From positions 1 to 64,000 of the forward strand of contig LJUJ01000008.1 in assembly GCA_001303785.1 (NCBI GenBank): DNA of 64,000 nucleotides, written 5' to 3'. A program made the translations under genes and the position numbers. This stretch comes from Caldifarciminota bacterium SM23_42 (GTDB lineage: Bacteria; Hydrothermota; Tepidihabitantia; SM23-42). Shown here in pieces: positions 3,237 to 3,564 of this stretch. The stretch's first letter is position 1. Each line of letters opens with the position of its first letter. The notes below the pieces were generated by a model that saw nothing but the letters and a program-made list of their open reading frames with translations, did not search any database and was not told the DNA's origin.

Positions 3237-3310
3237 CGGGGCGTGGCGCAGTGGTTTAGCGCGCATGGTTCGGGACCATGAGGTCGTGGGTTCAAATCCC
3301 ACCGCCCCGA
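3237..3310 (+). tRNA. tRNA-Pro (CGG)
   Basis: A 74-nt cloverleaf: acceptor CGGGGCG/CGCCCCG with the C1:G72 pair typical of tRNA-Pro and discriminator A73; D-arm GCGC/GCGC; anticodon stem CATGG/CCATG with loop TTCGGGA (anticodon CGG); T-arm GTGGG-TTCAAAT-CCCAC. CCA is not encoded. It begins at the base after the pcm stop codon. Confidence 0.95.
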
Positions 3311-3358
3311 CTCCTTGCGTACGCCTCAGGATGGAAGGATGCGCGAAAGGATAGTTAT

Positions 3359-3473
3359 GGTCGTGGGTTTCCCGTTTCTTTCATGAAAAACAAAATGTTG
3401 TGGAAACGGGATCCTCACAAAATCAACGAAATCATAGATTTCGGATTTTGTGGGACAAATCCCACCGCCCCGA
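3359..3473 (+). repeat. Second copy of the tRNA-Pro tail, split in the T-loop by an 86-bp double hairpin
   Basis: GGTCGTGGGTT (tRNA bases 3282-3292) recurs at 3359-3369, and the rest of the tail (3293-3310, 18 nt) recurs exactly at 3456-3473. Between them, at the T-loop position after TT, lie 86 bp that start TCCC and end GGGA. The insert holds a 9-bp perfect stem (3370-3378 with 3403-3411) and a second long stem (3416-3424 with 3444-3452, inner 3427-3433 with 3437-3443, loop ATA). TTTTT follows the tail copy at 3474-3478, so the region may also terminate transcription. Duplication of a tRNA 3' end is the usual trace of site-specific integration, but the placement of the hairpin insert is not. 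Confidence 0.75.
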
Positions 3474-3564
3474 TTTTTAGGCCACAGGCAATGGGAAATA
3501 GGAGACAGGGAGATAACTTAATAAGTGCGAATTGGGAGGTAAAAAGCGGAAACGTGGAGATAAG

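Follow-up and report, generated by a model that had tools for sequence, protein, structure and literature searches.

The trailer of the tyrTV operon of E. coli contains RtT repeats, which define Rfam family RF00391 and are annotated as the small RNA RttR. In this region (NC_000913.3 1285700-1287500, tyrV/rttR) the repeat period is 178 bp, and each repeat ends in AATCCTTCCCCCACCACCA, the exact tail of tRNA-Tyr from A58 on. Each repeat was also seen to include a copy of the 5' T-arm half, AAGGTTCGA, which is separated from the tail by a stretch rich in hairpins. This 9-mer is present in 11 of 20,000 shuffles of the spacer. Release as a stable RNA in the course of tRNA processing is a further mark of RtT RNA. 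Among dispersed palindromic sequences, REP dimers have been reported to insert inside other palindromes, and REP and REPIN elements are defined by a GTAG or CGTC foot motif (PMC3733652).

The unit analysed here lies behind a tRNA-Pro(CGG) gene in the window, that is, the whole stretch of 64,000 nucleotides that was studied (Table 1). This gene is intact and does not encode CCA. Its tail, CAAATCCCACCGCCCCGA, is found exactly in both T and T', the second copy beginning 163 bp downstream of the first. Between TT (3369) and C (3456) of the second T-loop, an insert of 86 bp (TCCCG...GGGA, 3370-3455) forms two back-to-back hairpins. A sequence-only reading had proposed that the tRNA-Pro tail recurs 163 bp downstream with 86 bp inside its T-loop, and its coordinates and description proved right to the base; the two stems that it drew in the TCCC...GGGA insert are both present in the fold. 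Its delimitation of an 86-bp element stood for the structured insert but not for what is repeated, which is larger (about 140-180 bp) and consists, in this order, of tail copy, spacer, 5' T-arm copy, hairpin 1 and hairpin 2. Elsewhere in the window, two similar stretches (GCATTTCGGTATTTRGTTAATTRRCGTAATWCCGAA, at 599-650 and 966-1012) bracket a small winged-helix-like gene (657-965) and are possibly an operator pair or a duplication.

Table 1. Features of the split-tail unit behind tRNA-Pro(CGG), in window coordinates.
Feature	Position	Strand	Basis
Intact tRNA-Pro(CGG) gene	3237-3310 (3310/3311)	+	ARAGORN; Rfam tRNA model 70.3 bits
T, proximal 3' tail, C56 of the T-loop to N73, CAAATCCCACCGCCCCGA	3293-3310	+	sequence
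Spacer	3311-3358	+	sequence poorly conserved, length kept
H', second copy of the 5' T-arm half, GGTCGTGGGTT	3359-3369	+	sequence
Hairpin 1, TCCCGTTTC ... GAAACGGGA, variable loop	3370-3411	+	fold; covariation; strand conservation
Hairpin 2, TCC(t)CACAAAATC ... GATTTTGTGGGA, inner stem CGAAATC/GATTTCG	3412-3455	+	fold; conservation
T', distal copy of the tRNA tail	3456-3473	+	18/18 identical to T
Whole split T-arm (H'/T' T-stem closing a three-way junction with both hairpins)	3359-3473	+	fold; covariation

The 115-nt stretch 3359-3473 has a folding energy of -45.4 kcal/mol (z = -4.97 relative to 200 dinucleotide shuffles), and its predicted fold is a three-way junction closed by the T-stem, with hairpins 1 and 2 as arms. 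When 17 pairs were followed across 19 units, 97.5% of the cells were paired and two-sided changes occurred in six pairs. The covariation score for these 19 units was 0.203, compared to 0.079 after shuffling, and none of 500 shuffles scored as high. Covariation of the T-stem is not independent evidence, because each unit matches its own tRNA. That of hairpin 1 is independent, the paired strands being TCCCGTTTC/GAAACGGGA, TCCCGTATC/GATACGGGA and TCCCGCTTC/GAAGCGGGA. Hairpin 2 falls into several sequence classes that have the foot TCC(t)C...GGGA in common and cut across tRNA types. A possible kissing contact between the loops of hairpin 1 (ATCATTA) and hairpin 2 (TAATG) was spotted by eye.

The search for further copies that the sequence-only reading had called for was rewarding: the same genome has a second unit, behind tRNA-Pro(TGG) on contig 35, and relatives have many, with stems that covary. 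The hosts belong to candidate division WOR-3/Stahlbacteria; all genomes are metagenome assemblies and several are fragmented. About 30 units were found, downstream of a tRNA, on its strand and split at TT^C. They accompany tRNAs for eight amino acids with ten anticodons, namely Pro (CGG, TGG, GGG), Leu (CAG), Gly (GCC), Met (CAT), Asp (GTC), Ser (CGA), Val (CAC) and Thr (CGT). The sequence-only reading was right about a compact structured element inside the T-loop of a tRNA fragment, which is exactly placed there and recurs beside other tRNA tails. The tail of a unit equals or nearly equals that of the adjacent tRNA: T' and T are the same in 23 of 32 tabulated units, and 25 of them retain every one of the five pairs of the T-stem; for a few Val and Thr units the tabulating scan placed the head wrongly. 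The acceptor part of T' is missing from Thr units, and some Val units include the anticodon arm. The 5' T-arm copy measures about 10 nt in nearly all units, a near-constancy that random duplication does not predict.

A covariance model of the unit matched 18 of 65 genomes of the class (E ≤ 0.01) and 17 of 147 genomes of the WOR-3 phylum (E ≤ 0.001). The matched genomes all fall in two families of one order, and the model found no match in other classes or in the rest of the phylum. The unit likewise had no match in phage, plasmid and viral contig collections. The condition under which the sequence-only reading would have fallen, a lack of other copies and of conserved stems, is contradicted. 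Some 30 copies, covariation and conservation refute the explanation of the unit as a chance decay product.

These units have an RtT-like anatomy but are not members of the RtT family. As in E. coli, single or tandem copies of a tRNA 3' tail lie downstream of the tRNA, a tail copy and a 5' T-arm copy are split by hairpins, and the repeat size is comparable (140-180 bp, compared to 178 bp). The sequences are unrelated, however, and E. coli has the repeats at one tRNA, encodes CCA and is split two bases later (at A58 rather than C56), whereas ten anticodons are concerned in WOR-3. The RF00391 covariance model gave no match in the window (E ≤ 1) or in 18 loci (E ≤ 0.1), its positive control in E. 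coli scoring 133-138 bits, and no known RNA family of Rfam matched the WOR-3 units in the window and the 18 loci.

The Pro-CGG unit is found at the same place in four species of the genus, orthology being based on the locus and on weakly similar spacers. Among these four orthologues, the mean pairwise identity of the spacer is 0.53 (0.41 between the window and the others), while the hairpin-1 loop reaches 0.47 and the 60 nt flanking the unit downstream 0.46. The two strands of hairpin 1 are at 0.89 and 1.00, hairpin 2 is at 0.88, H' at 0.95 and T' at 0.97, with 17 of its 18 positions invariant. Moreover, the spacer is 48-50 nt long in 13 of 16 Pro units. Together, the identity pattern and the largely constant spacer length indicate that selection acts on the folded part and on how far it lies from the tRNA. 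Gene conversion or re-insertion may contribute to this apparent constraint; the two units of the window's genome have hairpin-2 features in common that the orthologues lack. In the close relatives G002, G005 and G007 the Pro-CGG unit is absent or decayed, and it is hence not essential.

Constraint on H', T', the stems and the spacer length is what would be expected if the unit were a selected regulatory or processing RNA, i.e. an RtT-like tRNA trailer whose spread is secondary. It could, for example, provide an alternative 3' acceptor strand for the tRNA or release a small RNA whose 3' end resembles that of a tRNA. E. coli RtT, of like architecture and annotated as RttR, is in keeping with this explanation, and so are the predicted folds of pre-tRNA plus unit, since in nine of nine the minimum-energy fold puts the 5' acceptor strand of the tRNA on the distal tail, with a gain of 0.2-8.6 kcal/mol over pairing with its own tail. 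Any duplication of the tail would, however, create such bistability, and folding during transcription is in favour of the tRNA. As the unit is also missing or decayed at Pro-CGG in the three relatives named above and in most of the class, and as Thr units do without the acceptor part of T', we consider this explanation unlikely.

In one genus, the tRNA-Gly(GCC)/tRNA-Cys locus is empty in G018 and in G022 (on two contigs, which may be paralogues or strain variants). G021 and G008 each have a unit there; the two units differ, but both are placed at GAGTT^CRAATC. At the Pro-CGG locus of this genus, units are lacking in G008 and G018, G022 has a single one and G021 has two, and two units stand in tandem at tRNA-Pro(GGG) of G007. 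These comparisons show that units have been inserted into loci that are empty in sister species, with the tRNA left intact. At tRNA-Gly of G021, the tail of the tRNA differs from T' of its unit. Integrase remnants lie inside or beside the Val units of G003 and G008 and were seen at tRNA-Val only; a gene for a 165-aa membrane protein also lies behind the tRNA-Val of G003. At tRNA-Val(CAC), the tRNA and unit of G008 and G018, two members of one genus, were observed to have exchanged tails, with integrase remnants nearby and one more copy of the tail 2.5 kb downstream. In G008, a reading frame resembling a GIY-YIG nuclease was noticed between tRNA-Asp and its split tail (1007-1378 of stretch L041).

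Several loci bear traces of local copying. At Pro-CGG of G022, the first 52 nt of the spacer are the sequence that follows T', i.e. the start of the downstream gene, and at Pro-TGG of this genome a TGG-type tail is joined to the same CGG-derived spacer. Units including the spacer are common to Pro-CGG and Pro-TGG in both G010 and G022. At tRNA-Leu(CAA) on contig 9 of the window's genome, a different, AT-rich and hairpin-ended repeat of 48 bp was seen inside a T-loop copy, and a 37-nt duplication that starts at C56 of the T-loop surrounds it. The G022 spacers and the Leu-CAA duplication, the freshest cases, point to host sequence that was duplicated in place and then copied from one isoacceptor gene to another, rather than to a tail brought by an element. 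Most units have a spacer that does not resemble the sequence after T', and local duplication is visible in few. Behind the unit at tRNA-Pro(TGG) of G006, sequence of the Pro-CGG locus (the start of a TIGR00725-like gene) has been copied in.

Like attachment sites of the T-loop class of tRNA integration, the units have an intact tRNA upstream, a displaced tail downstream and precise empty sites in relatives. They could be miniature, non-autonomous integrative elements, for which a tyrosine recombinase would cross over in the T-loop, T would restore the tRNA and the split T-arm would be the possibly folded attachment site. Displaced tails, precise empty sites and tandem arrays fit this scheme, as do the tails swapped between G018 and G008 at tRNA-Val, the integrase remnants at the Val units of G003 and G008, and the Gly tail of G021 that is unlike its T'. 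Unlike attachment sites, though, the units are of about 160 bp without genes, a continuous block of identity between tRNA and displaced tail is absent, the TT^C interruption being found in every unit, and plain scars are lacking. Moreover, the complement of tyrosine recombinases is just two, presumably XerC and XerD, in each of the genomes G001, G002 and G007 and in the window's genome, where both are Xer-like. A dedicated integrase was not found in several unit-bearing genomes, and no integrase genes were found in Pro, Gly or Leu units. The host-derived spacer of G022 and its Pro-TGG tail on a CGG-derived spacer point instead to local duplication and conversion. We therefore consider an integrative element unlikely.

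The hairpin pair is not confined to tRNA tails. Large CATTGCGAG palindromes of G003, G005 and G007 (in the last, four copies) are cleanly interrupted by a related pair, CCCCGCTTTGCGGGATCC(T/A)CGATT...AAATCGGGA. The interrupted palindromes were seen to read CATTGCGAG...CTCGCAATGAC, with the hairpin pair just left of CAATCTC, so that one palindrome is nested in another. The pair is thus an independent module that stands left of CRA where the surroundings are palindromic. The sequence-only reading located it correctly in the T-loop, but the T-loop is not its sole site, as related pairs also interrupt other palindromes left of CAA. This resembles REP dimers, which also lie inside other palindromes, and further likenesses to REP, BIME, REPIN and MITE-like elements are the paired hairpins, conserved feet, variable stems and dispersed copies. 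The WOR-3 feet (TCCCG...CGGGA) differ in having neither GTAG nor CGTC, and the units are anchored to tRNA tails and include duplicated tRNA sequence. Furthermore, Y1 (RAYT-like) transposase genes occur in 22 of 24 genomes, and in contrast to REP and REPIN sequences the unit hairpins flank none of the 30 PF01797 loci that were scanned. The RAYT-like genes of this lineage were seen to be bounded by inverted ends, TGGGGTCAAATC...GATTTGACCCCA. A Y1 transposase was rejected as mobiliser since these ends, not the unit hairpins, flank its genes. A GIY-YIG nuclease was set aside too, being only occasionally beside a tRNA and just once inside a unit.

A census of tail copies covered 67 tRNA genes in retrieved stretches, 37 from the window's genome and 30 from G007. 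Copies were found at Pro-CGG, Pro-TGG, Leu-CAA, Pro-GGG and Thr-CGT only; every one is interrupted at TT^C, and no uninterrupted copy lies near any of the 67 genes. This agrees with the claim that the locus is no plain integration scar. It suggests that the tail duplication arrives together with the hairpins, and speaks against a two-step accident, in which an ordinary integration scar leaves a displaced tail and a dispersed palindromic repeat later hits its T-loop, displaced T-loops being the only ones where insertion is not lethal. Hairpin pairs outside tRNAs would supply such a repeat, and the anticodon arm in some Val units recalls ordinary integrase scars. Given the census of these two genomes and the two independent units of sister species at one tRNA-Gly, this sequence of events appears very unlikely.

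The explanation that we tentatively favour, although we rate it a little below an even chance, is that a non-autonomous hairpin element enters T-loops together with a tail duplication and is later kept as a structured tRNA trailer. The split T-arm unit, with the T-loop of a tRNA gene on one side and the second tail (T') of that gene on the other, would arise when the hairpin pair, a palindromic REP- or MITE-like element, enters a T-arm just left of CRA. The T-arm is itself a hairpin when single-stranded. Along with entry, the tail and part of its flank (about 60-80 bp) would be duplicated locally, which would let the promoter-proximal tRNA survive while the distal copy carries the insert. Units would then be copied among isoacceptor genes by recombination or gene conversion, with exchange of hairpin modules. 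Later, the split T-arm would be transcribed within the tRNA trailer and, in some lineages, retained as a structured RNA; such retention is suggested by the constraint seen on the stems and T-stem, on the tail and on the length of the spacer, by analogy with E. coli RtT. Points that weigh against this explanation are the 5' T-arm copy of about 10 nt in nearly all units, the many spacers unlike the sequence after T', the scanned Y1 transposase loci without flanking unit hairpins, and the share that re-insertion or gene conversion may have in the apparent constraint.

A bolder possibility, which we think rather improbable, is that the tRNA T-loops of this lineage serve as constant landing sites where tiny cassettes line up in arrays, each cassette ending in a folded attachment site, made up of the T-stem and both hairpins, that is recognised by its structure. 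By analogy only, integron attC sites are also sequence-variable, structure-conserved tandem sites beside a fixed landing site; the WOR-3 units differ from them in having no GTTRRRY/RYYYAAC core, a split site GTT^CRAAT, usually no cargo gene and no identified integron integrase. If cassette arrays were real, the newest cassette would be the one next to the tRNA, gene cargo would be occasional, as with the GIY-YIG frame of G008 and the membrane protein of G003, and E. coli RtT would exemplify this process independently.

RtT repeats had looked one-off. What is new here is a polymorphic and partly conserved split-tail family at ten anticodons, in a phylum unrelated to E. coli. Its natural pairs of empty and filled sites and its covariation data allow tests of mobility and of a role as trailer RNA, and the WOR-3 family suggests that a repeatable process operates at tRNA genes.
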